Shown here in pieces: positions 2,367 through 22,251 of a DNA stretch of 46,157 bases. Each line of letters opens with the position of its first letter. Position 1 is the stretch's first letter. Origin of the DNA: a virus; the IMG/VR virus record IMGVR_UViG_3300045242_000123, positions 1-46,157 of that record. One strand, 5' to 3'. Made by a program: the position numbers and the translations under genes. The notes under the pieces are model-generated. The model made no database searches. It had not been told where the DNA came from and saw only the letters and a list, made by a program, of their open reading frames with translations.

Positions 2367-2395
2367 TTGAACATTAAACCGATCTAGTGTTCTAT
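2367..2395 (+). promoter_or_regulatory. Promoter TTGAAC-N17-TTCTAT
   Basis: TTGAAC at 2367-2372, 17-nt spacer, TTCTAT at 2390-2395. The ATG at 2403 begins 8 bases after the -10 end, giving a leaderless or nearly leaderless mRNA. The same TTGAAC-N12-TAGTGTTCTAT arrangement occurs on the minus strand at 3129-3157. Confidence 0.75.
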
Positions 2396-2402
2396 GTATC
2401 TG

Positions 2403-2618
2403 ATGACATTAACCAGAGCACAACGGCAAGTCATTGATCGGCTAACAAGGGATTCACTCGTGCCCGCCAACCAGCGCAACGCAGGGCATTTCAGGCTTCA
2501 CGGCAGGGGAATGGAAAGGACGCTAGTATCACTTGAGCAACATGGGCTGATAACCTACAGTAAAAGCCCAACAAACAGCTACTTCTACGCTTATCTAAAG
2601 GGGGTGAAAATATCTTGA
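2403..2618 (+). CDS. Small winged-helix-like protein, 71 aa
   Basis: Product MTLTRAQRQVIDRLTRDSLV... with HGRGMERTLVSLEQHGLITY and a closing YFYAYL strand: the helix, recognition-helix and beta-wing order of small winged-helix DNA-binding proteins. ATG 2403 is chosen over ATG 2394 because 2394 lies inside the -10 box of the promoter. Probably an early transcription regulator, given its position next to the divergent promoter region; its target is not known. Confidence 0.65.
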   Translation: MTLTRAQRQVIDRLTRDSLVPANQRNAGHFRLHGRGMERTLVSLEQHGLITYSKSPTNSYFYAYLKGVKIS

Positions 2619-2743
2619 GATTTATCGGAAAACTCATTTCGGTACTATTCAATTTAGCGGCTGATTTCGGCGGCTGGTTAGATCGCAGGCTTTTGTCGCC
2701 TATGTCAGAGGGCTTTAATGAAGCCGAGGGCAAGCGCAAATAA
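2615..2743 (+). CDS. Small protein, 42 aa, TTG start
   Basis: TTG at 2615 overlaps the upstream stop (TTGA). The product begins LRFIGKLISVLFNLAADFGG (first residue Met in vivo) and ends in a charged tail. The hydrophobic N-terminus may associate with membrane. It ends 18 nt before a strong terminator, which supports a two-gene transcript. Confidence 0.45.
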   Translation: MRFIGKLISVLFNLAADFGGWLDRRLLSPMSEGFNEAEGKRK

Positions 2744-2761
2744 CACAAACCCCAACCCAAC

Positions 2762-2796
2762 AAAGCCCCAGCCCACAAAGCTGGGGCTTTCCTTTT
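2762..2796 (+). terminator. Rho-independent terminator
   Basis: AAAGCCCCAGC (2762-2772), 7-nt loop, GCTGGGGCTTT (2780-2790), then CCTTTT. Ends the short rightward transcript 2403-2743. Confidence 0.85.
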
Positions 2797-2851
2797 GCCC
2801 ACAAAGCCTTCCAGCCTATTCTCCTGTAAGCAATGCCAATATACCACAGCA

Positions 2852-2879
2852 ACAAAAAAGCCGCCCGTTAAGGCGGCTT
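2852..2879 (-). terminator. Rho-independent terminator, minus strand
   Basis: Stem AAGCCGCC (2858-2865) with GGCGGCTT (2872-2879). On the minus strand it is followed by a run of T, so it ends the leftward transcript of the genes at 2905-3318. Confidence 0.8.
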
Positions 2880-2904
2880 GATTGCTTTTGGTTTTGGCTG
2901 TGCT

Positions 2905-3120
2905 TTACAGGCTTGTTTCGCGTTTGGCTGGGGCTATTTCGAGAATGCATTCGGGGCAAACCTTAAACGCGGCCGCATCCGAATCTGACAAGTTAATGCC
3001 ATCCCTGTAACTCATGTCCATTATGCCAATGCCTGCTCCGCAAAGCGTTTGGCCGGGACTGCCCCTATCGTTTATTCGCTTGCCTCGTGGGATTATTCCA
3101 AATCTGATATGTGCTGTCAT
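2905..3120 (-). CDS. Small Cys-containing protein, 71 aa
   Basis: Product MTAHIRFGIIPRGKRINDRG..., with LCGAGIGIMDMSY and later FKVCPECILEI, a possible zinc-binding site built from Cys near residue 27 and a CPEC pair near the C-terminus. ATG 3120 is chosen because it lies 8 nt after the -10 box of its own promoter; a GTG at 3126 is nearer the box and less likely. A terminator on the same strand follows. Function unknown; early, leftward expressed. Confidence 0.65.
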   Translation of the reverse strand: MTAHIRFGIIPRGKRINDRGSPGQTLCGAGIGIMDMSYRDGINLSDSDAAAFKVCPECILEIAPAKRETSL

Positions 3121-3128
3121 ATACACCT

Positions 3129-3157
3129 ATAGAACACTAAAGCCTTTGATTGTTCAA
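3129..3157 (-). promoter_or_regulatory. Promoter TTGAAC-N17-TTCTAT (minus strand)
   Basis: TTGAAC (3157-3152), 17-nt spacer, TTCTAT (3134-3129). The ATG at 3120 is 8 nt downstream. The -35 box overlaps the stop codon of the gene at 3154-3318. Confidence 0.75.
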
Positions 3158-3318
3158 ACTTTCTTTTGCAAGCCCCTTTTAGCCCATCTTTCCTCGTCCC
3201 ATCCCTTCCCGTCTGCCAAGTCCCTCAAAAGCTCATTGGCCAACCCTGCTTCACTTTCCTCTGTGTCTGCTATTGCCTGAACTTCCATTTCATGCTCCGA
3301 CTGCTGTAGTTTATTCAT
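3154..3318 (-). CDS. Acidic helical protein, 54 aa
   Basis: Product MNKLQQSEHEMEVQAIADTE..., ending GWDEERWAKRGLQKKV. Rich in Glu and mostly helical. The ATG is preceded by AAGGTGGC, which contains a weak ribosome-binding-like GGTGG, but it also starts 6 nt after the -10 box of a TTGAAC promoter. Function unknown. Confidence 0.65.
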   Translation of the reverse strand: MNKLQQSEHEMEVQAIADTEESEAGLANELLRDLADGKGWDEERWAKRGLQKKV

Positions 3319-3324
3319 GCCACC

Positions 3325-3353
3325 TTAGTAAACCGCTTTAGCTAAATGTTCAA
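3325..3353 (-). promoter_or_regulatory. Promoter TTGAAC-N17-TACTAA (minus strand)
   Basis: TTGAAC (3353-3348), 17-nt spacer, TACTAA (3330-3325); 6 nt separate it from the ATG at 3318. Confidence 0.75.
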
Positions 3354-3458
3354 ACAAATAAGCAAAATACTTTTGCCTTAATAAAAACAGACACACAAAG
3401 CTCCGCAGCACGTACAGGTTGAATTACGGCTGTACTCTACTCAGCACGTTAAGCCAGC

Positions 3459-3483
3459 AAAGTGTATCATTTCTTTACACTTT
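3459..3483. promoter_or_regulatory. 25-bp inverted repeat, likely operator
   Basis: AAAGTGTA (3459-3466), 9-nt spacer, TACACTTT (3476-3483); arms match perfectly. The size suits a dimeric DNA-binding protein; the winged-helix protein at 2403 is a candidate partner. Confidence 0.65.
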
Positions 3484-3540
3484 ACAAGCAAGCAAGCTAG
3501 TTAGCCTTCTAGGCAAGATGAGGCTAGTGAGCAGGGTAGA

Positions 3541-3560
3541 GTAGAGAGAGAGAGAGAGAT
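3541..3560. repeat. AG dinucleotide tract
   Basis: About eight AG units in a row within the control region. Purine-rich; it may aid melting or triplex formation, or have no function. Confidence 0.8.
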
Positions 3561-3606
3561 AGTACACCAAGAGACCCCCTCATTGATGGATATGTCCAGA
3601 CCAGGA

Positions 3607-3669
3607 GGGGCTACAGGGTCAACAAGATCAAGCCAGTTTAGGGGCTACAAGCTCAACGGCGGGGCTACA
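3607..3669. repeat. Three GGGGCTACA direct repeats
   Basis: Copies begin at 3607, 3641 and 3661. The second and third share an extended GGGGCTACAAGC, and the first and second continue into GTCAAC and CTCAAC. Spacings are 34 and 20 nt. Arrangement resembles iterons or a multi-site operator. Confidence 0.75.
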
Positions 3670-3760
3670 AGCCTGATTCCGTAGGACTTATGAATAATCT
3701 CCATAGGAGAGCCATTTTGTTGTTGCAACACTCAACAAGGTCAACATATACTAACATCAT

Positions 3761-4012
3761 ATGAACATACACGAATACGCTCAACAAGCCATGAAGCACA
3801 ATAAGGGAATCATTTCCTCGCTCGAACTAGCCAAAATGGTTAGAGCCAGCAATCCGAGATTCGAGGACTATTCTGATCAGGCAATGCTTAAAATGATCTC
3901 AGCCGCCCTCGAACCCTACGGACTAAAAGCCAAAAACGTCAGGCTGGGCGACAAGGTTACAAGATGCTATCGTAACCCGCCGCCAGACCTTTCCACAATA
4001 GACTTTAAATAA
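3761..4012 (+). CDS. Hypothetical early protein, 83 aa
   Basis: Product MNIHEYAQQAMKHNKGIISS..., with ASNPRFEDYSDQAMLKMISA and VRLGDKVTRCYRNPPP. Predicted helical first two thirds, short beta end. The fold order is compatible with a small winged-helix protein, but I recognise no family. First gene of the long rightward unit, with a TACTAA box 6 nt before its ATG. Confidence 0.7.
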   Translation: MNIHEYAQQAMKHNKGIISSLELAKMVRASNPRFEDYSDQAMLKMISAALEPYGLKAKNVRLGDKVTRCYRNPPPDLSTIDFK

Positions 4013-4025
4013 TTCCAGAAATATA

Positions 4026-4054
4026 TTGAACGCTTTACTGATACAGGCTACTAA
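4026..4054 (+). promoter_or_regulatory. Promoter TTGAAC-N17-TACTAA
   Basis: TTGAAC 4026-4031, spacer 4032-4048, TACTAA 4049-4054; the ATG at 4062 follows after 7 nt. Confidence 0.75.
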
Positions 4055-4061
4055 TAGGCAT

Positions 4062-4316
4062 ATGGAAACAGCTATTCGCAGCAAAATTAAACCAGAGCAT
4101 CTTGCGTTCATGTCTGAACGCTTGGCCACAGTGAAAGACAAATTGCCAGCACACAGAGAAGCCCTAAAGGGCGACCCTCGCGTCAAAGACATTGAAAAGC
4201 GCCTGAGATGGGACGCGCTGAGCGCCAGCATCCCGGTAGCTTGGATTTGCGACAACCTTTATCCATACGTAACAGACGAACATATAGACAACGCACTAAA
4301 AAACATACTAGCCTAA
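4062..4316 (+). CDS. Hypothetical protein, 84 aa
   Basis: Product METAIRSKIKPEHLAFMSER..., helical and charged, with a hydrophobic ASIPVAWICDNLYPYV segment that looks buried rather than transmembrane. The longer frame from TTG 4026 would start inside the -35 box, so ATG 4062 is chosen. Function unknown. Confidence 0.7.
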   Translation: METAIRSKIKPEHLAFMSERLATVKDKLPAHREALKGDPRVKDIEKRLRWDALSASIPVAWICDNLYPYVTDEHIDNALKNILA

Positions 4317-4323
4317 ACCAAAC

Positions 4324-4560
4324 ATGAAAACAGACACACAGACAGAACAGCCATTCTTAGCCGACAAAGTGACCATGCCTCGCGAGCACTACGAGCAGTT
4401 GCGAGCCAAATCAGCCCAAGCCGACAAACTGGCTGAGGCTTTGCGGCTAACCTTGACCCATGTCGAAGAACTAGGCATGGACGGCAACGAGCTAACGGAT
4501 GCGTCCAATGCCATGCGCGAAGCCCTAGCCGAATACGAGGCCGCACAGGGGAAAAGTTGA
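4324..4560 (+). CDS. Coiled-coil protein, 78 aa
   Basis: Product MKTDTQTEQPFLADKVTMPR..., then EHYEQLRAKSAQADKLAEAL with heptad-like spacing and a second helix rich in Ala/Glu. Likely a small oligomer. Follows the previous gene after 7 nt. Function unknown. Confidence 0.7.
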   Translation: MKTDTQTEQPFLADKVTMPREHYEQLRAKSAQADKLAEALRLTLTHVEELGMDGNELTDASNAMREALAEYEAAQGKS

Positions 4561-4586
4561 AAGCAGAAACAAGGAAAGTTGAAACA

Positions 4587-4736
4587 ATGCAAAAATACAA
4601 AATCACCACCGAAACCATTAAGCGATACTATGTCACTATAGCGGGGGACATATACGGAGGCCCGTTCGACACCAAGGAAGAAGCCGTTAATTGCATTAGA
4701 GATGCCCAGCAAATAGACAAGGAAAACCCATTATGA
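4587..4736 (+). CDS. Small protein, 49 aa
   Basis: Product MQKYKITTETIKRYYVTIAG..., then PFDTKEEAVNCIRDAQQID. Beta-beta-helix order with aromatic strands. The stop overlaps the next start (ATGA), which supports it. Function unknown. Confidence 0.65.
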   Translation: MQKYKITTETIKRYYVTIAGDIYGGPFDTKEEAVNCIRDAQQIDKENPL

Positions 4737-4918
4737 GCACACAAGAAAAAGCAGACGCAAGCGCAGCCGCCAGTTACCTTGGCAGCCTTTCCAAAGGCAT
4801 ACCAAAGCGGATTACCCCGGCAGAAAGCCAGAGGCGAAGCGACAGGCTGGCTGAGGCAAGGAAAAAAAGATGGTGCAAGCCTAAATTAACTGAACGAAAC
4901 ACTAAAGCGAATGTCTGA
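4733..4918 (+). CDS. Small basic protein, 61 aa
   Basis: Product MSTQEKADASAAASYLGSLS..., basic C-terminal half (EARKKRWCKPK). Starts by ATGA overlap. Possible nucleic-acid contact through the basic tail; function unknown. A degenerate promoter-like CTGAAC-N17-GTCTGA covers its 3' end (4890-4918). Confidence 0.65.
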   Translation: MSTQEKADASAAASYLGSLSKGIPKRITPAESQRRSDRLAEARKKRWCKPKLTERNTKANV

Positions 4919-4942
4919 TATATATAAACCAACTAACTAGAA

Positions 4943-5167
4943 ATGAAAATCTATCAAGTAAGCACAAGAGCAAACGCAAACCACCCGTGCAATAACGAGC
5001 ATCAAGGCTTCTGCTTTGCGCCAAGCAAATCTGAGGCGTTCAAGATAGCGAAAGACGCTAGAAGCAAGGACTATGATTGCCAAATAACAGCAATACATGT
5101 CACTCCCAACAAGCAGGGAATCATTAAAGCCTTGAACATATACGCGGGCCATCCAGACAACGGATAA
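4943..5167 (+). CDS. Hypothetical protein, 74 aa
   Basis: Product MKIYQVSTRANANHPCNNEH..., then FCFAPSKSEAFKIAKDARSK and YDCQITAIHVTPNKQGIIKA. Beta-helix-beta-type small domain with His and Cys residues. A terminator follows 32 nt after the stop, so it ends the first early transcript. Function unknown. Confidence 0.7.
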   Translation: MKIYQVSTRANANHPCNNEHQGFCFAPSKSEAFKIAKDARSKDYDCQITAIHVTPNKQGIIKALNIYAGHPDNG

Positions 5168-5198
5168 CACGAACTGTTTACATACCGCTACGCTAGGT

Positions 5199-5235
5199 AA
5201 AAGCCGCCTTTGAGTTTATGGCGGCTTTTTCTTTT
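5199..5235 (+). terminator. Rho-independent terminator
   Basis: AAAAGCCGCC (5199-5208), 11-nt loop, GGCGGCTTTTT (5220-5230), then CTTTT. Separates 3761-5167 from the next gene block. A-tract upstream means it may act in both directions. Confidence 0.85.
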
Positions 5236-5268
5236 AGGTAGCCGCCTTACCCATGCTTACCCTAAAGT

Positions 5269-5493
5269 GTGAGCGTGACACAAGCCGGACAGAGCAAGAC
5301 AGCCAGCCTAGCCGAGACAGCCACGCACATAGCCATTGGCTTCGTTGCGGCCTTGCTGCTGACCAGATGGCTTATTCCCGGCCTTGGCTATTCGGATAAT
5401 GTGCGGATTACAGCCATTTTCACGGCTGTTAGCCTTGTCAGGGGCTTTGTCATCCGCAGAGCATTTAACTTTTTCACTACACACACGCAATGA
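5269..5493 (+). CDS. Small membrane protein (DUF7220-like), 74 aa
   Basis: Product begins MSVTQAGQSKTASLAETATH, followed by two hydrophobic segments (IGFVAALLLTRWLIPG at about residues 23-38 and an ITAIFTAVSLVRGFVIRR segment at about 47-64) and an RRAFNFF end. This is the pattern of a common small phage inner-membrane protein with the Ser/Leu/Glu-Thr start and RR-x-FN end, which I recall as DUF7220. GTG start at 5269; a second GTG at 5275 is possible. Stop overlaps the next start (ATGA). Role unknown. Confidence 0.7.
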   Translation: MSVTQAGQSKTASLAETATHIAIGFVAALLLTRWLIPGLGYSDNVRITAIFTAVSLVRGFVIRRAFNFFTTHTQ

Positions 5494-5765
5494 CCGATTG
5501 GCCACTAGAACGCAGAGACCTGATTGACCGCTTCCGCGAAGAACTATGGAAAGCGACATGGGACGGCAGCGCCAAGCGGCAGAACGGCACAAAACCGCCT
5601 TGGTATATAGACACGGCACACGAGGCCGCAATCTTTAGCCATCTGGCCAAATGGAAACGCGGAGAGCTCATAGACGCTGACAGTGGCGCACATCCGCTAG
5701 TGCATGTCGCATGGCGGGCGCTGGCAATAGCCTGCACAGAGAACGGCAATCATCCACTGCCGTAA
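5490..5765 (+). CDS. dATP/dGTP diphosphohydrolase-like protein (DUF5664-like), 91 aa
   Basis: Contains WYIDTAHEAAIFSHLAKWKR, then GELIDADSGAHPLVHVAWRA. The spaced His/Glu/Asp set (H...A...H...GE..D.DSG.HPL.HVAWRALAI) matches small phage proteins annotated as dATP/dGTP diphosphohydrolase-like (DUF5664). Such enzymes may alter purine deoxynucleotide pools during infection. Length is normal for the short phage form. Coupled by ATGA to the membrane protein upstream. Family assignment is from memory of the motif; activity is not shown. Confidence 0.65.
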   Translation: MTDWPLERRDLIDRFREELWKATWDGSAKRQNGTKPPWYIDTAHEAAIFSHLAKWKRGELIDADSGAHPLVHVAWRALAIACTENGNHPLP

Positions 5766-5779
5766 GGGTTCAAGGAATT

Positions 5780-6004
5780 ATGACCCGCTTCAACGACCCG
5801 ACAAGGCTGATCGAAGACAAGCTTAGGCTTGAGCAAGCCATTAAGCTAGTCAAGCAGGTTGACCCCGAAAGCATAAACGAGCACAAGAGCGGCGACCCTG
5901 TTGGCGACAGGCTTGCCACTGAAGGCTTTTACTGGGGGACAATCCAACAGCTAAAGAACTATCTACGGGTAGTGCAAGGGAAGGCTAAGAAGATTTACGT
6001 ATGA
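5780..6004 (+). CDS. Hypothetical protein, 74 aa
   Basis: Product MTRFNDPTRLIEDKLRLEQA..., all-helical, Lys/Glu-rich, ending RVVQGKAKKIYV. ATG 5780 is preceded by AAGGAATT, one of the few ribosome-binding-like sequences in the early region; an upstream frame from 5711 overlaps the previous gene and is rejected. Stop overlaps the next start (ATGA). Function unknown. Confidence 0.7.
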   Translation: MTRFNDPTRLIEDKLRLEQAIKLVKQVDPESINEHKSGDPVGDRLATEGFYWGTIQQLKNYLRVVQGKAKKIYV

Positions 6005-6078
6005 GTTTTGACCACTGTTTGCTAATGTTTATCACTGGCTGCGTGTTCGGCATACTGGTGCACTTGTTCCGCCAATGA
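6001..6078 (+). CDS. 25-aa membrane microprotein
   Basis: Product begins MSFDHCLLMFITGCVFGILV and ends HLFRQ: one hydrophobic helix with a basic end. Its start overlaps the upstream stop (ATGA at 6001) and its stop overlaps the next start (ATGA at 6075), so exactly this frame joins two genes. A single-pass membrane peptide is the likely product; alternatively it only serves to carry ribosomes to the ATPase gene. Confidence 0.55.
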   Translation: MSFDHCLLMFITGCVFGILVHLFRQ

Positions 6079-9744: not shown

Positions 9745-9746
9745 TC

Positions 9747-9776
9747 ACAGACAAGAGCGAAAGGGCTTTCGTTCAC
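9747..9776 (-). promoter_or_regulatory. Possible promoter with internal palindrome
   Basis: Minus strand GTGAAC (9776-9771), 18-nt spacer, GTCTGT (9752-9747), a weaker relative of the TTGAAC class. The palindrome CGAAAG-GG-CTTTCG (9758-9771) lies between the boxes, the right place for a self-repressing regulator. Confidence 0.45.
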
Positions 9777-9813
9777 AAGTTTTTTCTTTCGTAAATAGTA
9801 GTAGGACAAAACC

Positions 9814-9826
9814 TTACGTGGCGTAA
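9814..9826. repeat. Inverted repeat TTACG-TGG-CGTAA
   Basis: Perfect 5-bp arms in the divergent region between 9744 and 9908; a related half-site CTTTCGTAAA lies nearby at about 9787-9796. Candidate operator half-sites. Confidence 0.5.
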
Positions 9827-9856
9827 AAAAGAAAGTTGAAAAAACGGCTAGACACA

Positions 9857-9885
9857 TTGAACATCCTTGTTTTACATTGGTCTAA
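9857..9885 (+). promoter_or_regulatory. Promoter TTGAAC-N17-GTCTAA with overlapping inverted repeat
   Basis: TTGAAC 9857-9862, spacer 9863-9879, GTCTAA 9880-9885. The inverted repeat ATTGGT (9876-9881) / ACCAAT (9894-9899) covers the -10 box and the expected start site. The next ATG (9908) is 22 nt after the -10 box, so this transcript would have a short leader. Restarts rightward transcription after the minus-strand regulator. Confidence 0.7.
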
Positions 9886-9907
9886 CAACGAAAACCAATA
9901 AATAGAC

Positions 9908-10147
9908 ATGAGCAAATACACTACCCCTGATAGCAAATCCACCCGCGCCACTCGCGGAGAGATCGTTGAAGAATGGCAAACCCATTGCGGATTTAAAGAG
10001 CCAGCAGACCCCTTTGGCTCCCGGCCATTCGGCGGCGAAGGCGGCATGGCTGACATAAACCGGAAGTGCGACCAGTTCTTTGCCCTCAGGAATATGATCT
10101 GGGTTAGCTGCGCGTTTGGGGCTGGTGATTACGTAAACCGCCAATGA
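9908..10147 (+). CDS. Hypothetical protein, 79 aa
   Basis: Product MSKYTTPDSKSTRATRGEIV..., with FGGEGGMADINRKCDQFF and an aromatic C-terminus. First gene after the promoter at 9857. Stop overlaps the next start (ATGA). Function unknown. Confidence 0.6.
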   Translation: MSKYTTPDSKSTRATRGEIVEEWQTHCGFKEPADPFGSRPFGGEGGMADINRKCDQFFALRNMIWVSCAFGAGDYVNRQ

Positions 10148-10317
10148 GAACGCCAACTATAACCCAAAACCTAAGCCTGTTCCATGCCCACCAACAGCCT
10201 AAGCGTCGGCTAGTAGAACGCTTTTTTGACAGGCGAATCAAGCAAGTCAGGCGCGAGCTTATGCGGCTAAAGGTTAAGCGTGCTTTGTTTGCGCCAACTG
10301 AGGCAAGACTGCCATGA
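10144..10317 (+). CDS. Arg-rich protein, 57 aa
   Basis: Product MRTPTITQNLSLFHAHQQPK..., then RRLVERFFDRRIKQVRRELM: strongly basic helix. ATGA overlaps on both sides support it. Possible nucleic-acid binding; function unknown. Confidence 0.6.
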   Translation: MRTPTITQNLSLFHAHQQPKRRLVERFFDRRIKQVRRELMRLKVKRALFAPTEARLP

Positions 10318-10568
10318 TGCTACAGCTAACTTGCCCGGACACATGCAGTTCTCGCTTTGAACAAAGTGTCACATCTTTCCCCGTGCCTGTGCTGGCCGAG
10401 CTAAGTCAATCCGGCTTACCGGGAAGTGAACTTAGCGAAGCGCGAGAGAGCATAAGACCGTGTGCCATTTGGCCGGACTCTAGCGGCGGGGAATCCTTTT
10501 GGGACATCTCGCCTGACGAAGCAAGGCAGGCTTACGAGAATGACATATACCAGCAGGTGGAGGAATGA
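10314..10568 (+). CDS. Hypothetical protein, 84 aa
   Basis: Starts MMLQLTCPDTCSSRFEQSVT, acidic C-terminus (ISPDEARQAYENDIYQQVEE). Second ATG at 10317 is an alternative. Coupled by ATGA to both neighbours. Function unknown. Confidence 0.55.
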   Translation: MMLQLTCPDTCSSRFEQSVTSFPVPVLAELSQSGLPGSELSEARESIRPCAIWPDSSGGESFWDISPDEARQAYENDIYQQVEE

Positions 10569-10753
10569 ACATGCTAACACGAGCCTTAGAGAAGTTTATC
10601 CAACGCAAGCGCATCTATTGCGAGGCTAACCCATGCTGCATGTCCTATGGCCGACACGCAGGCGAGCGTGCAGACGGCAGCGTCTACTTATTCCGTGACA
10701 AACATTTCCCAAAACCAAACAACCAACCAAAGGAAACCAAATGCCAACAGTAG
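10565..10753 (+). CDS. Hypothetical protein, 62 aa
   Basis: Starts MNMLTRALEKFIQRKRIYCE, then NPCCMSY and a basic polar tail. Its last 13 bases overlap the OB-fold gene. Function unknown. Confidence 0.55.
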   Translation: MNMLTRALEKFIQRKRIYCEANPCCMSYGRHAGERADGSVYLFRDKHFPKPNNQPKETKCQQ

Positions 10754-11181
10754 TATCAAAATCAGTATTCAAACAAGGCCAAGGCCCAAAAGGCCCGTGG
10801 ACAATGTATTCAGTTGACCTGGACAACGGCGGCAAAGCAACAGGCTTTGACGAAGTTGAGGTCGGCTCGCAAGTCAGCTTGGAGCAGAAGGGCAAATACA
10901 CCAACTACAAGCTGGCCGATGGTAGCAAGCCAACCTCAGTCAGCACAAGCAGCAACGGCCACCATGATGCCAGTGCAGCTTTCAGAGGCGGCGATGACAA
11001 GTCAGCCGAGATCAAATGGATGGCCAGCCAGAAGGTAGCCGCCCTGCTCATGGCCGGGGCTGGCAGCGACAAGGTTGATGTGCTCATGCAAGTGGCGCGG
11101 TTCATCTACAACGAGCCAGCCGATGTAGTGGCTGAGGCCAAGCGGCTGTTTAACGCTGAAGAAGTTAAGCCGGTATTCTAA
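10741..11181 (+). CDS. OB-fold single-strand DNA-binding-like protein, 146 aa
   Basis: The N-terminal half has the strand-rich order KGPWTMYSVDLDNGGKATGF, then EVEVGSQVSLEQKGKYTNYK, typical of an OB fold. A flexible Ser/Thr/His linker follows and then a helical C-terminus (EIKWMASQKVAALLMAGAGS). It lies directly before the RecB-like nuclease with a TAATG overlap, so it likely binds single-stranded DNA in recombination or replication. Specific family not certain. Confidence 0.6.
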   Translation: MPTVVSKSVFKQGQGPKGPWTMYSVDLDNGGKATGFDEVEVGSQVSLEQKGKYTNYKLADGSKPTSVSTSSNGHHDASAAFRGGDDKSAEIKWMASQKVAALLMAGAGSDKVDVLMQVARFIYNEPADVVAEAKRLFNAEEVKPVF

Positions 11182-12026
11182 TGGTTTCAATAGCCACAAT
11201 CCCTGTAGCCAGCCAATACAGGTTTGACGCAGAGAAGCATATTCATCTGCTGAACGACCAGCCGCTAATGGGGGCAAGCACGGTAGTTGACGCCCTTGGC
11301 AAGCAACTGACTTACTTCGCATCCGGCAGGGCCGTCATGGAGTTTGGCGTGCCTGACCCGAAGGTGCTGACCAAGCTGAAGAATGGAAAGGCGACCAAGG
11401 ACGAGGAACGATTGCTTAGAGAGTCCGTTGACGCCGCCCTTGACCAGATAAACGAGAGCGGCCTGGATGCGTTCATTAAGCGTTGCACCAAAGCCTACTT
11501 CGCCCACAACACATACAAGAAAGAGACGGCCAAGGAAGGAACTGGAACGCACGGCGTCCTGTCTCATTACATTCAGTCATGCATAAACGACAGCGGGGGA
11601 GAACCGAGCTACGTGTTAAATGGTATGCCCCCCGCTGTCGTTGCATTTGCCGAGTGGGCTGTTGAGAACGTCAAGAAATTCATCTGGACAGAGAAGAATT
11701 GCTACAGCGAAAAGCTGTGGGTAGGCGGCATCAGCGATTGCGGCTGCCTGCAAAGGAATAACCGAACAGCCATCATAGACTTCAAGCGTAAAGGCTGCTA
11801 CTTCTCGCAGCACGTTCAAGTCGGCGGCTATGCCGCGCTAGTGGCCGAGAACGGGCTTTGCGACAGCGAAGGCGGCTTCGTAATGGAGCCGTGGCTGGCC
11901 GACGATCTGATTGTGTTCCCTAACAACGAAGGCAAGACGCGCATAGAGCCAGCCAAGAGGTTCATGCAAAGGTTTGCCGAAGTGGTCAACATCTACAAGC
12001 ACCAGCAGGAGTATGAAAATGACTAA
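11181..12026 (+). CDS. RecB/Cas4-like PD-(D/E)XK nuclease, 281 aa
   Basis: Nuclease core: GTGTHGVLSHYI (H124), then VGGISDCG (D186) and TAIIDFKRK (D200, K202), followed by QVGGYA (Q213, Y217). This is the H...D...DxK...QxxxY order of RecB-family exonucleases. The preceding gene encodes an OB-fold protein, a usual partner. Predicted role: resection of DNA ends for recombination or packaging. No 4Fe-4S cysteine cluster like that of Cas4 is evident. Confidence 0.75.
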   Translation: MVSIATIPVASQYRFDAEKHIHLLNDQPLMGASTVVDALGKQLTYFASGRAVMEFGVPDPKVLTKLKNGKATKDEERLLRESVDAALDQINESGLDAFIKRCTKAYFAHNTYKKETAKEGTGTHGVLSHYIQSCINDSGGEPSYVLNGMPPAVVAFAEWAVENVKKFIWTEKNCYSEKLWVGGISDCGCLQRNNRTAIIDFKRKGCYFSQHVQVGGYAALVAENGLCDSEGGFVMEPWLADDLIVFPNNEGKTRIEPAKRFMQRFAEVVNIYKHQQEYEND

Positions 12027-12522
12027 ACTTTCGGCTTTACATACAGTAGCCGAGCCGGACAGGATGCCATTGGAGATAGTCCCGCCGAGTCGGGTCGACG
12101 ATTCTTCCGGTGGCTCTTTGACATTCAAGGCTTTCGGTAGTGGGGCCACGTCGATCGACACGCCGAAACGTACCTCGGAGGGAACGATATTAGGTCAACC
12201 CTCCACTAATTTGCCTGACCCGTGGCTGTTCAACAGCGAATCGCTAATTCGCGAGATAGACCGCATCAGGGAAACGGCTCTACAGGTTCCGTGCAACGGA
12301 GATTCTAATGCCACGCACTTCGGCTTGCAGCAGGTGATTAACACGGCCTGGACGCTGCGGGAGAACTTGCGATTCATGCTTGGCCTGCATAGGCAGCGGC
12401 AAGATTCTTTCCGGCGCGAAGAGAGTACACAACATCAGACAATATATGACCTAGAAACTTGGGTCAATCTGGCGCGCAATAACTTGTTAATAACCCTATG
12501 GGCAGGCTGTCCAGTGCCCTAA
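12013..12522 (+). CDS. Hypothetical protein, 169 aa
   Basis: ATG at 12013 or 12019 lies inside the end of the nuclease gene. Pro/Ser/Thr-rich N-terminal half, then a helical part SLIREIDRIRETALQVPCNG... and LRENLRFMLGLHRQRQDSFR. Not recognised. Confidence 0.65.
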   Translation: MKMTKLSALHTVAEPDRMPLEIVPPSRVDDSSGGSLTFKAFGSGATSIDTPKRTSEGTILGQPSTNLPDPWLFNSESLIREIDRIRETALQVPCNGDSNATHFGLQQVINTAWTLRENLRFMLGLHRQRQDSFRREESTQHQTIYDLETWVNLARNNLLITLWAGCPVP

Positions 12523-12529
12523 AAACAGC

Positions 12530-12793
12530 ATGAAACCAACCGCCCTGACAGCCCTGCTGATAGTCTCATTCATATACCTTTCGGCTGCCATACCGGGCAG
12601 GCCAAGGCGTCACAGCCCTCCCGCTGGGGGAACGGCTGTGCCGCCGCGCCTGTTCGACAACGGCGAGGTCGCTCGCATCGCAGCAAATGGCTGCAAAGTC
12701 GTAGTCCAATCCGCCGCCTGGGATGCCGGTTGCCGCTGTTGGATTTATACAGTTCTTCCGGCATCAGCAAGTCTGACGCAGGCAGGCAAATAA
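12530..12793 (+). CDS. Small exported or membrane-anchored protein, 87 aa
   Basis: N-terminus MKPTALTALLIVSFIYLSAA looks like a signal peptide or anchor; the remainder is Pro/Arg-rich and then has three Cys (NGCKVVVQSAAWDAGCRCWI). Stop overlaps the next start (TAATG). Function unknown. Confidence 0.6.
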   Translation: MKPTALTALLIVSFIYLSAAIPGRPRRHSPPAGGTAVPPRLFDNGEVARIAANGCKVVVQSAAWDAGCRCWIYTVLPASASLTQAGK

Positions 12794-13734
12794 TGTTCAA
12801 AAATAATATGAAAGAATGGACAGAAGAAAGCGTGCAACGCCTTGTCGCAATGGACAAGCTTGCAGCCAGGCGAATAGCCGACAAGCATAACGCGGCCATA
12901 CCCAAACCCGCGTCGGGCGAAGCTACAGAAAAAAGCTATACCGCTAATCAGATACACCAGCAGATACAGCAGGGAATGTCCGACGCACGTAAAACGCCGG
13001 AGTATGCGGAAGAAAAGGCTAGTGAACCCAAGCCCGCGTCAGGCGAATGGACGGCGGAAAGGCTACGTGAATACCTGGGTGGATATTCCTCTTATGAACT
13101 TCGGCTTCGGGCAATGTCCAAGCTAATCAACGCCGCGCTCGCCGCAGAGCGGGAGAAGTCAGTCAGGGACTTTGCGGCAAAGATTCTGCATGGTGATGAT
13201 GTGCATAAAGCATGGCTTACGGAAGCTGCTGATGCTTACGTCAACGGATTCACCATGCCAGCCCCTAGATCATCCCCGATCACAGACGAAGCGGTAAACG
13301 AGGCATGGTCTGAACTTGAGGCGGAATTGGACATTGGTTATATCACGGACGGAAAAAGTTACGAGTGTGGTCAATGCGGCGGAAAAGGAAAAACCCATGA
13401 GGATGGTTGCATCGTCCCTTCGTGGGAGAAGGTATCAAGCTTAAATCGTAAGATGTTCCAGCAACTCCGCGCACAACTGGCGGCAGCACAGGCGCGATTA
13501 CTTGCAACTGGAAAGCTGTTAGAAGGCGTTGACGAATTAAGCGCAGCCATAGCCGACGCAAAGACAGTGGCATACGCGAAGGGAGCACAAGACCAGCACG
13601 GTGAGGATATGCTGATACAGAAGCCGCTTGTGGATGCGCTGACGCTGGTTCGCAAGACATTGTGTTCCGGTGGCGGACTTCGTGAAGCCACCGACATCAT
13701 AGACGACGCACTCGCAAAGGCGGTGCAGCCTTGA
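12793..13734 (+). CDS. Modular helical protein with WTEE...HNAA modules, 313 aa
   Basis: ATG 12793 overlaps the upstream stop; a longer frame from TTG 12730 is rejected. The N-terminus has MKEWTEESVQRLVAMDKLAA followed by IADKHNAA, then PKPASGE; a second PKPASGEWTAERLREYL unit follows with INAALAAERE. A cysteine cluster ECGQCGGKGKTHEDGC lies near residue 195 and resembles a zinc site. The C-terminal part is a long Ala-rich helix. The WTE...HNAA unit reappears in the protein at 14502. Function unknown; module shuffling is likely. Confidence 0.65.
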   Translation: MFKNNMKEWTEESVQRLVAMDKLAARRIADKHNAAIPKPASGEATEKSYTANQIHQQIQQGMSDARKTPEYAEEKASEPKPASGEWTAERLREYLGGYSSYELRLRAMSKLINAALAAEREKSVRDFAAKILHGDDVHKAWLTEAADAYVNGFTMPAPRSSPITDEAVNEAWSELEAELDIGYITDGKSYECGQCGGKGKTHEDGCIVPSWEKVSSLNRKMFQQLRAQLAAAQARLLATGKLLEGVDELSAAIADAKTVAYAKGAQDQHGEDMLIQKPLVDALTLVRKTLCSGGGLREATDIIDDALAKAVQP

Positions 13735-14108
13735 ACAGCCGCCTGCGAGAAATGTTCCCTCGCGGCAGCAAATCCTTTTATGAAGCTAACCCTGACAGTC
13801 CACTACCGAACCCCAAGCCTCAATGTGACAAGACGCCAGCATTGGCGGGCGCACGTAATCGAAAAGAAAAAAGCGTGGCTCGCACTCGCGTCCGCTTTAC
13901 AGGCTACCGCGTTAGACCCCTCGACCCTGATAACTTTGCAGGCTCGGTTAAAGACCTGCTTGACGGTCTTAGACACGCACATCTTATCGAAGGGGACGAA
14001 CCGTGGCGCATCGACTTTGAAACGGCGCAGAAGAAGGTCAAAAGCTTCTCGCAAGAAAAGACAGTGATAGAAATAGAAACCCCAGACAACAGAGAGAGTG
14101 ACTTATAG
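13731..14108 (+). CDS. RusA-like Holliday junction resolvase, C-terminal frame
   Basis: From about residue 50 the product has ARTRVRFTGYRVRPLDPDNF, then SVKDLLDGLRHAHLIEGDEP: the D-x-DN...K...D.L motif set of RusA resolvases. The first 50 residues (from TTG 13731 or ATG 13752) do not look like RusA; the matching RusA N-terminus is read in the other frame from ATG 13780. The A-rich run at about 13861-13871 lies where the two frames would meet. Confidence 0.6.
   Translation: MNSRLREMFPRGSKSFYEANPDSPLPNPKPQCDKTPALAGARNRKEKSVARTRVRFTGYRVRPLDPDNFAGSVKDLLDGLRHAHLIEGDEPWRIDFETAQKKVKSFSQEKTVIEIETPDNRESDL
13780..14067 (+). CDS. RusA-like resolvase, N-terminal frame (frame-shifted)
   Basis: Begins MKLTLTVHYRTPSLNVTRRQ, then HWRAHVIEKKKAWLALASAL, which is the expected start of a RusA protein (beta strand, S-x-N, W, basic helix). 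Past about residue 45 it becomes a low-complexity basic tail with no RusA active-site motif. The active-site Asp residues are encoded in the -1 frame. Either a natural frameshift makes the full enzyme, or the gene is broken, or one base is wrong in a homopolymer. Confidence 0.55.
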   Translation: MKLTLTVHYRTPSLNVTRRQHWRAHVIEKKKAWLALASALQATALDPSTLITLQARLKTCLTVLDTHILSKGTNRGASTLKRRRRRSKASRKKRQ

Positions 14109-14131
14109 ACGATTACTTTGTTTTCGACCGG

Positions 14132-14338
14132 ATGCTTGCAATCTGCAAAGACCGCAAGATCAGCCCTTCAATTATAGTCCATGCCAGCAAACACAACCGC
14201 AAAGCATGGGACGGCAGCGATAGTATGCAAAGAGCCAAAGTCTTACAACTCCTGCGGGCCGAAGGCGTGCGGGTATGCGAACTGACCAGGCTAACAGCAA
14301 TGACAACAATGGGAGTACTGAAAGCATTAGCAAAATGA
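14132..14338 (+). CDS. Hypothetical protein, 68 aa
   Basis: Product from ATG MLAICKDRKISPSIIVHASK..., helix-turn-helix-like end (VCELTRLTAMTTMGVLKALA). Just upstream the frame reads IDDYFVFDR from an ATA at 14105 that overlaps the RusA stop, in the same way as the ATGA overlaps elsewhere, so an AUA start is conceivable. Possible DNA-binding protein; not certain. Confidence 0.6.
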   Translation: MLAICKDRKISPSIIVHASKHNRKAWDGSDSMQRAKVLQLLRAEGVRVCELTRLTAMTTMGVLKALAK

Positions 14339-14505
14339 CAAAACAACAATGGGCGCAACCAGCATTCAGGGCGGCTTATGCCCGCAAAGTGTATGCAGCA
14401 AAGAAGAAGGCAGGCGTAGCCCGCAAAGAGCGCCTTGGCGTATGGGCTGAGCGCGGCTTTTGCCCGCCAGTTATGCGGCAGGGGGTTTGTTTGCCTAGCG
14501 TATGA
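14335..14505 (+). CDS. Small basic protein, 56 aa
   Basis: Product MTKQQWAQPAFRAAYARKVY..., very basic helix (AAKKKAGVARKERLG), then a Cys-containing tail. ATGA overlaps on both sides. Possible nucleic-acid binding; function unknown. Confidence 0.6.
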   Translation: MTKQQWAQPAFRAAYARKVYAAKKKAGVARKERLGVWAERGFCPPVMRQGVCLPSV

Positions 14506-15047
14506 AAAATACAGGCGAATGGACAGAGGATACAGTTAAGGAAATGTGCCAGTTCACGGCTAGCGACTTCAAGCTAATAGCCGACGCCCACAACGCCGCA
14601 CTCGCTTACGAGAGACAACTAAGGCCAGCATGGGACAAAATAAATCAGCTCAAGGACGAAATTAAAGAGTTAAAGAGTAATAAAATGACAGAGGGCGATT
14701 GCCGGATTGTGATAGGAGCACTCGATTCACTCGGAGTTGCCCTTGCTGACAAGAAGCATCAGTGGACGGAAGGCGAACGAGCGATATACGAGAAAGCTAT
14801 TGAGATAGCTCTTGGAATCGGGAGTAGAGAGCCGCTCACTCAAGCGTTCACAGTAGAGATAAATGGAGAGGACGTATTGTTTGTGAGACTGGACGACCAC
14901 AACGCCGCACTCGCTGCCAAATCACTAGAGTCCTCAAAGGAACTGCTCATGGAGCGCGACGAGTTAAAGCAACAATTGGCCGTAGCGCAAGCAGCACTAA
15001 AAGAAATAGCTGGCCAGATCAGGGCAGCGTCATCGCCTGGCAAATAG
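14502..15047 (+). CDS. Coiled-coil protein with WTE...HNAAL modules, 181 aa
   Basis: Starts MKNTGEWTEDTVKEMCQFTA with LIADAHNAALAYERQL, close in order to the N-terminus of the protein at 12793. A second copy RLDDHNAALAAKSL lies near residue 130 and is followed by a coiled coil (KELLMERDELKQQLAVAQAA). Function unknown; shares modules with the protein at 12793. Confidence 0.65.
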   Translation: MKNTGEWTEDTVKEMCQFTASDFKLIADAHNAALAYERQLRPAWDKINQLKDEIKELKSNKMTEGDCRIVIGALDSLGVALADKKHQWTEGERAIYEKAIEIALGIGSREPLTQAFTVEINGEDVLFVRLDDHNAALAAKSLESSKELLMERDELKQQLAVAQAALKEIAGQIRAASSPGK

Positions 15048-15093
15048 CAGAGAAGGCATTAGCAGGCGGCTTCCTGTAGGCCCAAATAAAAGT

Positions 15094-15261
15094 ATGAAAA
15101 CAACCGACCAAATCGCTACAGAAGCTACCAAGGAAATCTGCAAACATGACGAGAGGGACGATTACAACTTGCTTGGAGAAGACGGCATCAGGAAAGTCAT
15201 TAAAGCCGCCATTGAAAAAGCTATTGAAGCCAAAGAAAAAGGCTCCCAAGAGGGAGCCTAA
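15094..15261 (+). CDS. Small protein, 55 aa, last early gene
   Basis: Product MKTTDQIATEATKEICKHDE..., then LGEDGIRKVIKAAIEKAIEA; ends KEKGSQEGA. Helical, charged. Its last codons form the stem of the late-strand terminator. Function unknown. Confidence 0.65.
   Translation: MKTTDQIATEATKEICKHDERDDYNLLGEDGIRKVIKAAIEKAIEAKEKGSQEGA
15236..15258 (-). terminator. Terminator of the late (minus) transcript
   Basis: On the minus strand: GGCTCCC, loop TCTT, GGGAGCC, then TTTTT CTTT. It lies 70 nt past the last late stop (15330) and inside the coding end of the early gene 15094-15261. On the plus strand no T-run follows the stem. Confidence 0.85.
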
Positions 15262-15329
15262 GCCTAAGCCGCTGACTAGAGAGCAGCTAATTTATATGTG
15301 GAAGGTGGACGGTGGCAATATGAGTTGGG

Positions 15330-17120: not shown

Positions 17121-17124
17121 AAAA

Positions 17125-17229
17125 TTATTCGTCGTCCTGATTGCGATTGTCGTTGTAGATACAGCCAAGCAGCACAAGCACGGCCATTATGATGGCTATG
17201 CCTAAGGCTATTCCGGGGAGAAGGCTCAT
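17125..17229 (-). CDS. 34-aa single-pass membrane protein
   Basis: Product begins MSLLPGIALGIAIIMAVLVL and ends LGCIYNDNRNQDDE: one hydrophobic helix and a polar acidic tail. Start overlaps the upstream stop (TAATG); 4 nt separate it from the next start. May assist DNA ejection or lie in the membrane during assembly; not recognised. Confidence 0.6.
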   Translation of the reverse strand: MSLLPGIALGIAIIMAVLVLLGCIYNDNRNQDDE

Positions 17230-18935: not shown

Positions 18936-21109
18936 TAGGTCAAGCAGTCCTTGTAGTAATCTTTCATCTTATTGCCTATCTTGTCCCTGAGTTCGTCTAT
19001 GGACATTGGCTTTTCCTTGGTAGCCTTGATAACCTTGTCGGCAACATCGTTGATGCTCTTAGCCGCTGCGTCCTGTGCGGCCTTAACGCCTTTTGAAGCA
19101 TCGCGCATTGCTGCGTCATGCGGGCCTTGGGCTTCTTTGCCGAACTGGTCTAAATACGCCTGCCTCATGCCTGTGTAGGTCTGCGGCGGCGGCTTATTGA
19201 TGTCCTGAAGCTGCCGACCGCGTTCGCCCCATTGCGTCCCGATCTTCTTGGTTACACCTTGCGCGAACTGTTCGGCTGCGTTTCTGGCGTCAACGTATGT
19301 CGGCGAATCTATTCCCTGTGTGCGCTCTAAATCCAGTGCGTGCTGATTAAGCATGTCGCCATACGCAATCGCGTGTCCAAGCTCGCGGGTTGACGTGGGT
19401 AAATCGCGGGAAATCTTGTATCCGGCAGCAGGGCCGAGGCTGGGGTCTTTCTGGATGTCCCTGTACCCTTGATATTGCAACGCTGCGGGCGAATCTACTT
19501 CGCCCCGCTTAATGGCGTCTTCGCCGAACTGCTCTACAAGTCTTCTATGTGAGGCTCCAACCCTAACTGGTTCGCCAGCCGCTTGAGGAGACTCCACCGG
19601 CCCAGCAGGCTGTCCACTCTCAGTGCTGCCTTTTGGTTGTGCGGTTTCTTCCACCCCATTCCCGCCCAGTCCCTCGGCAGGCTGCTGTCCCCGCACATCC
19701 ACGCCTGCTTGGGGTTGAACTTGGGGATTGGCAGGTTCATCGTTCGGTATTTCAAGGTTCAGTGGTTCCCGCAGCGTGTCAAATGCGCCTTCCGGCACAG
19801 CCTGTGTCGTGTCAAGGTGCTGATTGGCTATATTGTCCAGTTCGTCGTTTATTTGGCCGATGCGCTCGTCAACTGCCGGATGCGTGCTGCCCGTGGCGCG
19901 CTTGGCAAGGTCATTTTGCAGTTGCAGGTCGCTGCGCTCCCGCATAAGCCTCAGTTCGTCAAGGGAAATGGCTTCTCGGACAGACGGAGCAGGCTCAGTT
20001 GCTTCCTCTGGCGCGGGGGCTGGTTCCGGCCCAGTGGCATTGGCCGCTTGGACTTCCTGCTCGGTAGGCTCGCTTTGCTGGTAGCGTTGAGTCTGTGGCT
20101 CTACTTTAGCGCGCTCCTGCGGTGCTGACCCTGCCTGGGCATCAGAACCCCACACGGGTTGATGATTTTCGTCTAGGATATTCGTAACAAGCGAAGGGTC
20201 TGCATATCCTCCGTCAGCAAGCACTACATCCCCAGAGGACACTCCGAACATACCTACGCGGTGCTCCGACCCATCAACTAGCCGGACAAACGTGGGCGCG
20301 TTGGCTGACGAACGCAGCTTGAGTACTGTTTCTACTGGCAACTGCGACGTCGGCAACTTCGCTCCGGGCATGACCGATTCCGGCCCACCGAGTTGCGATG
20401 CCGGTGTGGTGGTAGCCGACTGGGCATCAGAACGCGCTACAGGGCTTTCTGGCGCGTTTGCGGACTGTTCTGGCGGCTGTTCCCATGGCTGCTTAGCCTC
20501 GCCGGTAAAGCCCGCCTTTCCTGGCTGAGAGAATGAAGGCTGTTCTGATGGCTTTACGTCCTCTGGTGACAAAGCCTTGCGGATTTCCTCTATCGGGCTG
20601 CCACGCATGGCCCCTGCGGCCATCAATGCCCCAACGCCTGTATTGTAAAAGTTCTGGCTGCCAATTTCTTCTTCGGGGCTAACGGGCATACCGGCAAACC
20701 GCTTGGCTGTCGGGCCAAGGAGGTCTTGCGGCTGATGATACAAATGAGCTAAATCATCCCAGTTCGTGAACATGCTTTCCATGCCCTGAATGGGATGCTC
20801 AAGCATAGGCTGAACATTGGCACGTAAAGCCTCTGCCAATGGCGTAGGCTCTGTCCCTGCCGTGGCGGCATTAGGCTCAAATGCCACTTGGCCTGTGCGC
20901 GATTGCTCCTCTGGCGACATTGGCGCGTACTGGGCGGCTGATACCGGCCCAGCGTCAGGCGTGATTACCTGCGGCTCTAGCGAGGGAACGTCCTGTTGTG
21001 CCTGAGCGGGTTTGCTGCCATCGGGCAGCACAATCTCATCAAACTGGGGCATAGCCGTGGCTTGCGCCTGCGGCTTGCTTCCATCCGGTAATACTACTTC
21101 GTCGAACAT
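18935..21109 (-). CDS. Pro/Glu-rich polyvalent-type virion protein, 724 aa
   Basis: The N-terminus has two copies of FDE(V/I)VLPDGSKP, then a long Pro/Gln/Glu-rich linker to about residue 520. The C-terminal folded part contains DLPTSTRELGHAIAYGDMLN and KKIGTQWGERGRQLQDI, a pattern seen in large phage polyvalent proteins. The start overlaps the upstream stop (TAATG). Likely an ejected protein; enzyme activity cannot be stated. Confidence 0.55.
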   Translation of the reverse strand: MFDEVVLPDGSKPQAQATAMPQFDEIVLPDGSKPAQAQQDVPSLEPQVITPDAGPVSAAQYAPMSPEEQSRTGQVAFEPNAATAGTEPTPLAEALRANVQPMLEHPIQGMESMFTNWDDLAHLYHQPQDLLGPTAKRFAGMPVSPEEEIGSQNFYNTGVGALMAAGAMRGSPIEEIRKALSPEDVKPSEQPSFSQPGKAGFTGEAKQPWEQPPEQSANAPESPVARSDAQSATTTPASQLGGPESVMPGAKLPTSQLPVETVLKLRSSANAPTFVRLVDGSEHRVGMFGVSSGDVVLADGGYADPSLVTNILDENHQPVWGSDAQAGSAPQERAKVEPQTQRYQQSEPTEQEVQAANATGPEPAPAPEEATEPAPSVREAISLDELRLMRERSDLQLQNDLAKRATGSTHPAVDERIGQINDELDNIANQHLDTTQAVPEGAFDTLREPLNLEIPNDEPANPQVQPQAGVDVRGQQPAEGLGGNGVEETAQPKGSTESGQPAGPVESPQAAGEPVRVGASHRRLVEQFGEDAIKRGEVDSPAALQYQGYRDIQKDPSLGPAAGYKISRDLPTSTRELGHAIAYGDMLNQHALDLERTQGIDSPTYVDARNAAEQFAQGVTKKIGTQWGERGRQLQDINKPPPQTYTGMRQAYLDQFGKEAQGPHDAAMRDASKGVKAAQDAAAKSINDVADKVIKATKEKPMSIDELRDKIGNKMKDYYKDCLT

Positions 21110-22077
21110 TATTGACTAAAACTGGGGTCTGCCTGCCATCCTGTAGCAGTTTTCACGTACCATACACTGCCCGCTCTTGCGTGCGTGCCAACTGGATAGT
21201 TGCCTTCCTGCTGTAGAGCCTGACTTGATTGGTCAACATCACCCTGACGAACACCTTGACCTCCAGAGGGATTTGGTGGCGGAAGTTGTGCTGCCGGTGG
21301 ACTGGCGGGGTTGAGTGCTCCGCGATAGGTCTGCTGCGCCTGTCGGTAGGTGTTAGACGCCTGCCGTGCTTGGTCAAGGTAATCTTGGCTTACGTAGTGA
21401 TAAGAGTTGTCTTTCGGGTCAACGTACAGATATTGACCTTGCGGCACTGTCGTTGCTTGTGTTCCTTTGCTATACACTGCGGGTTGGTCGCTTGGGGCGT
21501 GTATGGCATTAGGGTCATTTAAGATTCTGTCCGGCACATCGTACTGGTCGAAAGCATCGCCAGCTGCCGTCTGTGCGTCTTTCAGCGTGTTGATGTTCTG
21601 GCGAGGAGTCATTTGGGAATTGCCGCCCCCGAACGGGTTATTATTGCGCTGAGTGGTTAATGCCTTCTCTGCGTCAATGCGAGCTTGCGTAAGCTGGTCA
21701 TCCAAAGGATTAGTGGTAGCCTTCTGCTGCATCAGGTAAGCCTTGAGGGCATCTGTGCCGCCGTAGTCTGGTACTCTGTTCGGGTCTTGATAGCCGCCCA
21801 TAGGGTCACTGGGATTCTGCATACCATACATGGCAGCATTGGCAGAGTCATTGGCTGCCCCGGCATTCTGGTAATTGGCATAGCCGCTGGCTGCGCTGCC
21901 TATGCCTTTTATCATGTCCTGATATTGCTGTTGCTGTATCTCCTGGTCGTGATATTGCTTTTGCAGGAGAGCAGCCACAATAGGGGCTATGCTGACTGTC
22001 TCAGGCTTGTATTGCGATTGTATCTGGGCGGCTGTGTTTGTTTGCCCTTGGCTTGGATTTGACCAGTTAAATGACAT
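21109..22077 (-). CDS. Gln/Asn-rich candidate ejection protein, 322 aa
   Basis: Starts MSFNWSNPSQGQTNTAAQIQ; low complexity, Gln-rich, with helical stretches and a small beta C-terminus (GSVWYVKTATGWQADPSF). Comparable in style to the neighbouring ejection-type proteins. Function inferred from composition and position only. Confidence 0.6.
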   Translation of the reverse strand: MSFNWSNPSQGQTNTAAQIQSQYKPETVSIAPIVAALLQKQYHDQEIQQQQYQDMIKGIGSAASGYANYQNAGAANDSANAAMYGMQNPSDPMGGYQDPNRVPDYGGTDALKAYLMQQKATTNPLDDQLTQARIDAEKALTTQRNNNPFGGGNSQMTPRQNINTLKDAQTAAGDAFDQYDVPDRILNDPNAIHAPSDQPAVYSKGTQATTVPQGQYLYVDPKDNSYHYVSQDYLDQARQASNTYRQAQQTYRGALNPASPPAAQLPPPNPSGGQGVRQGDVDQSSQALQQEGNYPVGTHARAGSVWYVKTATGWQADPSFSQ

Positions 22078-22192
22078 AAGTTATCCTGTCGCTTTCCTTT
22101 AGATGCTTCCGCATCTGCTTGTAAGCCTGCTTGCGATTCCTGATTGGTTGAGCGAGTCGTATTTGAAGTAGTTTCCGTGGGTCGGTTTCCAT
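22067..22192 (-). CDS. Small basic protein, 41 aa
   Basis: Product METDPRKLLQIRLAQPIRNR..., strongly basic helix. Stop overlaps the next start by 11 nt. TAGG lies about 10 nt before the ATG. Function unknown. Confidence 0.5.
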   Translation of the reverse strand: METDPRKLLQIRLAQPIRNRKQAYKQMRKHLKESDRITYVI

Positions 22193-22216
22193 TATTTTTA
22201 CCTAGCTAAATTATTT

Positions 22217-22245
22217 TTGAACGAATCAGTAATGCGGTTGTCTAA
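22217..22245 (+). promoter_or_regulatory. Antisense promoter TTGAAC-N17-GTCTAA in the late region
   Basis: TTGAAC 22217-22222, spacer 22223-22239, GTCTAA 22240-22245, on the plus strand in a gap of the leftward late operon. The same boxes and spacing as at 9857-9885. A GTG at 22252 begins 6 nt after the -10 box. Confidence 0.65.
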
Positions 22246-22251
22246 GCTAAC

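Follow-up and report, generated by a model that had tools for sequence, protein, structure and literature searches.

Transcription of phage early genes normally depends on the housekeeping sigma factor of the host, and leaderless phage transcripts are known from lambda cI, which is transcribed from PRM, and from Thermus phage P23-45. ECF sigma factors are normally kept inactive by an anti-sigma factor. The podophages phiEco32 and 7-11 encode a sigma factor of their own, gp36, and have phage-specific middle and late promoters (PMC4331800). Sigma-E promoters carry the boxes GGAACTTTT and GTCAAA (PMC1804206), and RpoE needs a C at -10 (PMC8103513).

The window analysed here is a 46,157-nt stretch of viral DNA (IMGVR_UViG_3300045242_000123). 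It contains six matches of TTGAAC-N17-NWCTAW, all with the coordinates and strands given in an earlier sequence-only reading (Table 1). Dinucleotide shuffles gave 0.04 expected matches, compared with the approximately 0.1 estimated in that reading; none of the shuffles reached six. Local 60-bp block shuffles gave 0.05 expected matches in the window. When spacers of 5 to 59 nt were scanned, six matches were found at N17, single ones at N33 and N43, and none at any other length. A position-matrix scan, which the earlier reading had proposed, gave bimodal scores, with 20–22 bits for the six sites and 13 bits for the next best place in the window. Intergenic DNA makes up 6.7% of the window, and essentially all sites lie in it, the exception being site 2, which overlaps the stop codon of the ORF behind site 3 by a few bases. 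All sites read GAAC-N18-(A/T)C, with the GAAC, the N18 spacing and the C unchanged throughout. Both GAAC and the C belong to the search motif itself; GAAC is present in 10 of 10 sites of two phages, namely the six sites in the window and four in the relative G001 described below. Since the motif was chosen post hoc and arbitrary dyads reach such counts (six is unremarkable for freely chosen hexamer/3-mer dyads, coding repeats reaching 14 and shuffles 7–9), the significance of the family rests on the full motif and the G001 test.

Table 1. Coordinates of the motif sites and associated features in the window.
Feature	Position	Strand	Remark
Site 1	2367–2395	+	TTGAAC-N17-TTCTAT; predicted +1 2402, ATG 2403
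71-aa ORF behind site 1	2403–2618	+	Winged-helix-like by eye only
Bidirectional terminator-like hairpin	2858–2879		Separates the units of sites 1 and 2, which converge
71-aa ORF behind site 2	2905–3120	-	
Site 2	3129–3157	-	TTGAAC-N17-TTCTAT; predicted +1 3122, ATG 3120
54-aa ORF behind site 3	3154–3318	-	
Site 3	3325–3353	-	TTGAAC-N17-TACTAA; predicted +1 is the A of ATG 3318
Direct repeats	3606–3672	+	AGGGGCTACA...TCAAC, upstream of 3723
Housekeeping-type (Verrucomicrobiota sigma-A-like) promoter	3723–3752	+	TTGCAA-N18-TATACT, 8 nt before ATG
83-aa ORF	3761–4012	+	Behind the 3723 promoter; 39% identical to G001 counterpart
Site 4	4026–4054	+	TTGAAC-N17-TACTAA; predicted +1 4061, ATG 4062
Small-ORF operon behind site 4	4062–5167	+	ORFs 4062, 4324, 4557/4587, 4733, 4943
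Probable degenerate seventh site of the family	4890–4918	+	CTGAAC-N17-GTCTGA; same sequence in G001, leaderless there with an ATG exactly 6 nt on
Terminator-like hairpin closing the site 4 operon	5201–5235	+	AAGCCGCC...GGCGGCTT-T run, read from the sequence
Site 5	9857–9885	+	TTGAAC-N17-GTCTAA; predicted +1 9892; leadered
Gene block past site 5	9908–15261	+	Includes exonuclease-like 11181–12026
Site 6	22217–22245	+	TTGAAC-N17-GTCTAA; predicted +1 22252; antisense within the late region

The RNA start was predicted ten bases on from the invariant C, with this C taken as -10. Nine of the ten sites of both phages have a purine at the +1 predicted in this way, and seven have a start codon (six ATG, one GTG) whose first base falls at +1 to +3. 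For ATG alone, 6 of 9 distinct sites are in register (p ~1e-6), three of the sites being related to each other. The earlier claims that the start codon follows the -10 box by 6–8 nt at five of the six window sites, and that the family is mostly leaderless, are both borne out; one of the five is the GTG of a 34-codon ORF (22252). The leadered sites are site 5 in both phages, with a leader of 16 nt in the window and 6 nt in G001, and the G001 copy of site 4. From this geometry, most sites would yield leaderless mRNAs. Leaderlessness is not peculiar to these genes, because Shine-Dalgarno-like sequences are near background throughout the phage (ahead of 11 of 71 starts vs 7.0 in shuffles). The RNA of lambda cI and P23-45 likewise starts at or beside the start codon, whereas in the window phage the predicted leaderlessness extends to an entire promoter family of ECF-like layout.

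One near-complete relative, IMGVR_UViG_3300045285_000042 (G001; 46.2 kb), was found in IMG/VR. Its terminase and portal share 97 and 78% identity, respectively, with those of the window phage. A second relative (G002) is a 16-kb structural fragment, and a viral scan with the capsid protein gave the two known relatives and no further ones. The pre-defined motif has four matches in G001 vs 0.04 expected. At site 5 the -35 box is kept at 6/6 and the -10 box at 5/6 positions (boxes 11/12), compared with 11/17 for the spacer. Site 4 lies inside a 47-bp block that is 100% identical in G001, while the neighbouring flanks do not align. The kept boxes around a diverged spacer and the identical island between unrelated flanks indicate real promoters, and we consider it highly probable that the sites function as such. 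Site 3 has two counterparts in G001, each ahead of another small gene. Site 1 with its gene (unit 2354–2796) and a 294-bp stretch holding site 6 (22068–22362) are missing from G001; these two units appear to behave as promoter-plus-gene cassettes that are gained and lost. Site 6 is followed by the 34-codon GTG ORF and by no long ORF, and the leaderless reading of this ORF is weak. Downstream of site 6, RNA folding was not significant (z -0.38) and no Rfam match was found.

Among 49 terminase-related records and phages the motif was absent apart from one match in MW202711, and 34 exonuclease-related records gave no excess over chance. A relaxed motif outside G001 gave 22 matches in 1.05 Mb of exonuclease-related loci vs 27 in the control. 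In a collection scan for TTGAAC-N17-TACTAA with a leaderless ATG, G001 was the only three-site locus among the matches listed, and the two-site loci among the matches listed were AT-rich look-alikes. The description of the set as a phage-specific promoter family is supported, with no significant occurrence in 83 related records, and the set belongs to this small lineage.

The sites are probably of the ECF type (group 4, sigma-E-like). The -35 element contains AAC, as GAAC in 10 of 10 sites (AAC lies within the search motif), and a -10 cytosine stands at a fixed spacing, with only N17 forming a family and the +1 geometry in agreement (the C lies within the search motif). Sigma-E promoters of Gammaproteobacteria (RpoE/AlgU, ECF02-type; GGAACTT / GTCAAA or TCTRA) have in common with the sites the GAAC -35, the -10 C and the same distance, GAAC-N18-(W)C being compared here with the usual sigma-E spacer length. 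The -10 box is GTCTAA in sites 5 and 6, which resembles the sigma-E -10, TACTAA in sites 3 and 4, and TTCTAT in sites 1 and 2. Unlike the gammaproteobacterial promoters, the window sites have TT for GG before AAC, allow TACTAA and TTCTAT as -10, and lie in a phage, leaderless and with no sigma gene identified. The sequence-only reading had found the boxes more like ECF promoters than like TTGACA/TATAAT; the likeness is closer than it said, as the spacing and the invariant C fit too.

As in phiEco32 and 7-11, a podovirus-like phage here has a small, well conserved, low-copy promoter family unlike host sigma-70 promoters. Pfam and/or PHROGs scans of approximately 70 ORFs of the window gave neither a sigma factor nor a phage RNA polymerase: the proteins had no Sigma70 or phrog_1740 match of the phiEco32 type, and no RNA_pol match as in T7-like single-subunit polymerases; the genome search for PF00940 had no positive control giving a signal. 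The same scans detected phiEco32 gp36 as a positive control (phrog_1740, E 2e-45; Pfam sub-threshold, 0.002). The window phage therefore differs from phiEco32, whose gp36 strongly matches phrog_1740, and the promoter sequence differs as well.

Among isolates, the terminase relatives are Akkermansia phages (30–35% identity). When 84,980 bacterial and archaeal genomes were scanned with the terminase, 35 loci were obtained, 32 of which are Verrucomicrobiota by title. Because the terminase relatives are almost all Verrucomicrobiota, the host probably belongs to this phylum. A literature search found no promoter map of Verrucomicrobiota, in which few promoters appear to have been mapped so far. Upstream of the tmRNA and RNase P genes of Verrucomicrobiota, TATANT was found in 26 of 54 cases vs 8.0 in shuffles, and TTG-N19-22-TAT[AT]NT in 20 of 54 vs 1.3. 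In contrast, WCTAW was rarer than chance upstream of the same genes (6 of 54 vs 14.6), so the phage -10 differs from the housekeeping -10.

These data bear on the strongest alternative, that the sites are plain sigma-A promoters and that the host is unusual in having a housekeeping sigma factor with a preference for TTGAAC and NWCTAW. Phages usually rely on host sigma-A for early genes, and a -35 TTGA with 17-nt spacing would suit sigma-70. However, the Verrucomicrobiota -10 is TATANT, with WCTAW below chance, and none of the six sites has the TATAAT-like -10 of a host sigma-A promoter; the C never varies, at a position for which sigma-A favours T; the 388 Verrucomicrobiota genomes show no enrichment of exact matches; and both phages have a separate housekeeping-type promoter. 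We consider this reading unlikely. Assignment of the sites to host housekeeping promoters was rejected in view of TATANT in the Verrucomicrobiota RNA genes.

The separate promoter lies at 3723, and its G001 counterpart at the same place (TTGCAG-N18-TATATT) is the sole match of the housekeeping pattern in that genome. In the window the pattern matches once more, at 12467 (-). As 2–3 matches per genome are expected by chance, the weight of the 3723 promoter lies on its position common to both phages, not on the count. The 83-aa protein encoded behind it is possibly a winged-helix DNA-binding protein, as weakly predicted from a structure model (pLDDT 68; Foldseek E >0.5 for all matches). A half repeat TCAACAAGGTCAA (3732–3744) lies inside the promoter spacer, and G001 has its own version. 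This half repeat and the direct repeats upstream are possible operators or replication iterons.

Another alternative is that TTGAAC, perhaps together with the inverted half in TGTTCTA, is bound by a non-sigma phage regulator that brings in polymerase or keeps it off, so that the sites would be operators or activator-dependent promoters. Imperfect inverted arms, T(T/A)GAACA...TGTTCTA, were observed in sites 1 and 2 and in the G001 site at 4459–4487, and the possible winged-helix protein encoded at 3761 could supply such a regulator. The arms are, however, present in just 3 of 10 sites and missing from the others, the strictly one-sided arrangement, in which a start codon stands at the predicted +1, is typical of promoters, and a LexA-type palindrome is not in excess. 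We therefore regard a regulator as improbable, somewhat more so than sigma-A. The Verrucomicrobia LexA operator is the palindrome TGTTC-N4-GAACA; as a candidate for the sites it was rejected, with 12 observed vs 16.9 expected. Chance matches selected after the fact have a negligible likelihood: counts of six do arise when dyads are freely chosen, but the pre-fixed motif was found again in G001 in matching places with its boxes kept (4 vs 0.04 expected, which effectively refutes a chance origin), and all sites are intergenic with start codons in register.

For sites of the sigma-E-like type, the factor reading them may tentatively be a host ECF sigma; a phage factor not recognisable as a sigma homologue is less likely, though still a realistic candidate. 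Searches of 388 Verrucomicrobiota genomes for the leaderless motif gave 68 sites among the matches listed, not clearly above a backwards-pattern control, and the KWCTAA form, with 52 matches in 115 genomes, was not enriched. A stricter motif gave 10 matches in Verrucomicrobiota vs 9 in the backwards control, with 8 of the 10 belonging to one look-alike type and at least 7 to one locus in related genomes. Some Verrucomicrobiota (L255, L256, L418–L422) have a conserved TTGAACTTTTTCC..AAAACGGTCTAA with kept boxes and a diverged spacer, adjoining a ferritin-like gene in L255/L256 (named by eye from the translation), a candidate host sigma-E-type element. At approximately position 1733 of L423 (G094:C38:18900-22400), on the minus strand, TTGAACCTTTTTCCGGGAAACCGGTCTAA precedes the ATG of a signal-peptidase-I-like gene (by eye) by 7 bases, a leaderless sigma-E-like arrangement in the candidate host phylum. 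As evidence for host sigma-E, both the ferritin-like-gene look-alikes and the TTGAACCTTTTTCCGGGAAACCGGTCTAA site are anecdotal.

We propose that polymerase with a sigma-E-like factor would bind GAAC at -35 and flip out the invariant -10 cytosine. RNA would then begin ten bases past this C, mostly at the start codon or 1–2 nt before it, and the resulting mRNAs would be leaderless, which fits the scarce use of Shine-Dalgarno sites by this phage. Under the control of the sites would be small accessory genes at a divergent hub (2.4–4.1 kb), the operon that runs rightward from 4.06 kb, and a second block from 9.9 kb. The housekeeping-type promoter shared by both phages, together with the sigma-E-like set, suggests a two-step scheme in which host sigma-A polymerase would act first, at 3723, giving the 83-aa protein, and the sigma-E-like set would follow or act alongside. 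The whole explanation, in which we infer the sigma type, its source and the timing, is moderately favoured. The set may be early; the proposal that it switches on the early genes together is not supported, because site 6, which G001 lacks, is placed within the late region but on the other strand, and the 3723 promoter could act earlier. An ECF sigma for early genes would also need a trigger, since an anti-sigma factor normally holds it inactive. It is a tentative idea, with the odds somewhat against it, that the takeover genes of a lytic phage are under a stress-type (ECF) sigma, either hijacked from the host or a phage factor, triggered by the gene behind the housekeeping promoter and expressed as leaderless mRNAs. 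If the hub genes use ECF-type promoters, infection would be tied to the host stress response; this may reveal an ECF sigma that works in Verrucomicrobiota in the absence of stress, or a phage transcription switch of a new kind. For the phylum, the analysis also provides a defined group of promoters whose +1 positions are predicted.

Some further features were observed near the sites. Family and PDB searches with the 71-aa ORF behind site 1 gave no match. The 84-aa product of 4062–4316 matches Pfam LCM (leucine carboxyl methyltransferase) with 27.3 bits vs a cut-off of 22.3, which is odd for such a short protein. A conserved block CCTTACGTGGCGTAAAAAAGAAAGTTGAAAAAA upstream of site 5 (9745–9856) and A/T tracts upstream of site 3 are possible UP elements or a regulator site. 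The window ends (1–532 and 45500–46031) are 94% identical over 532 bp, which, given that the order in G001 is permuted, points to a genome that is circular or permuted, with ends from two strain variants.
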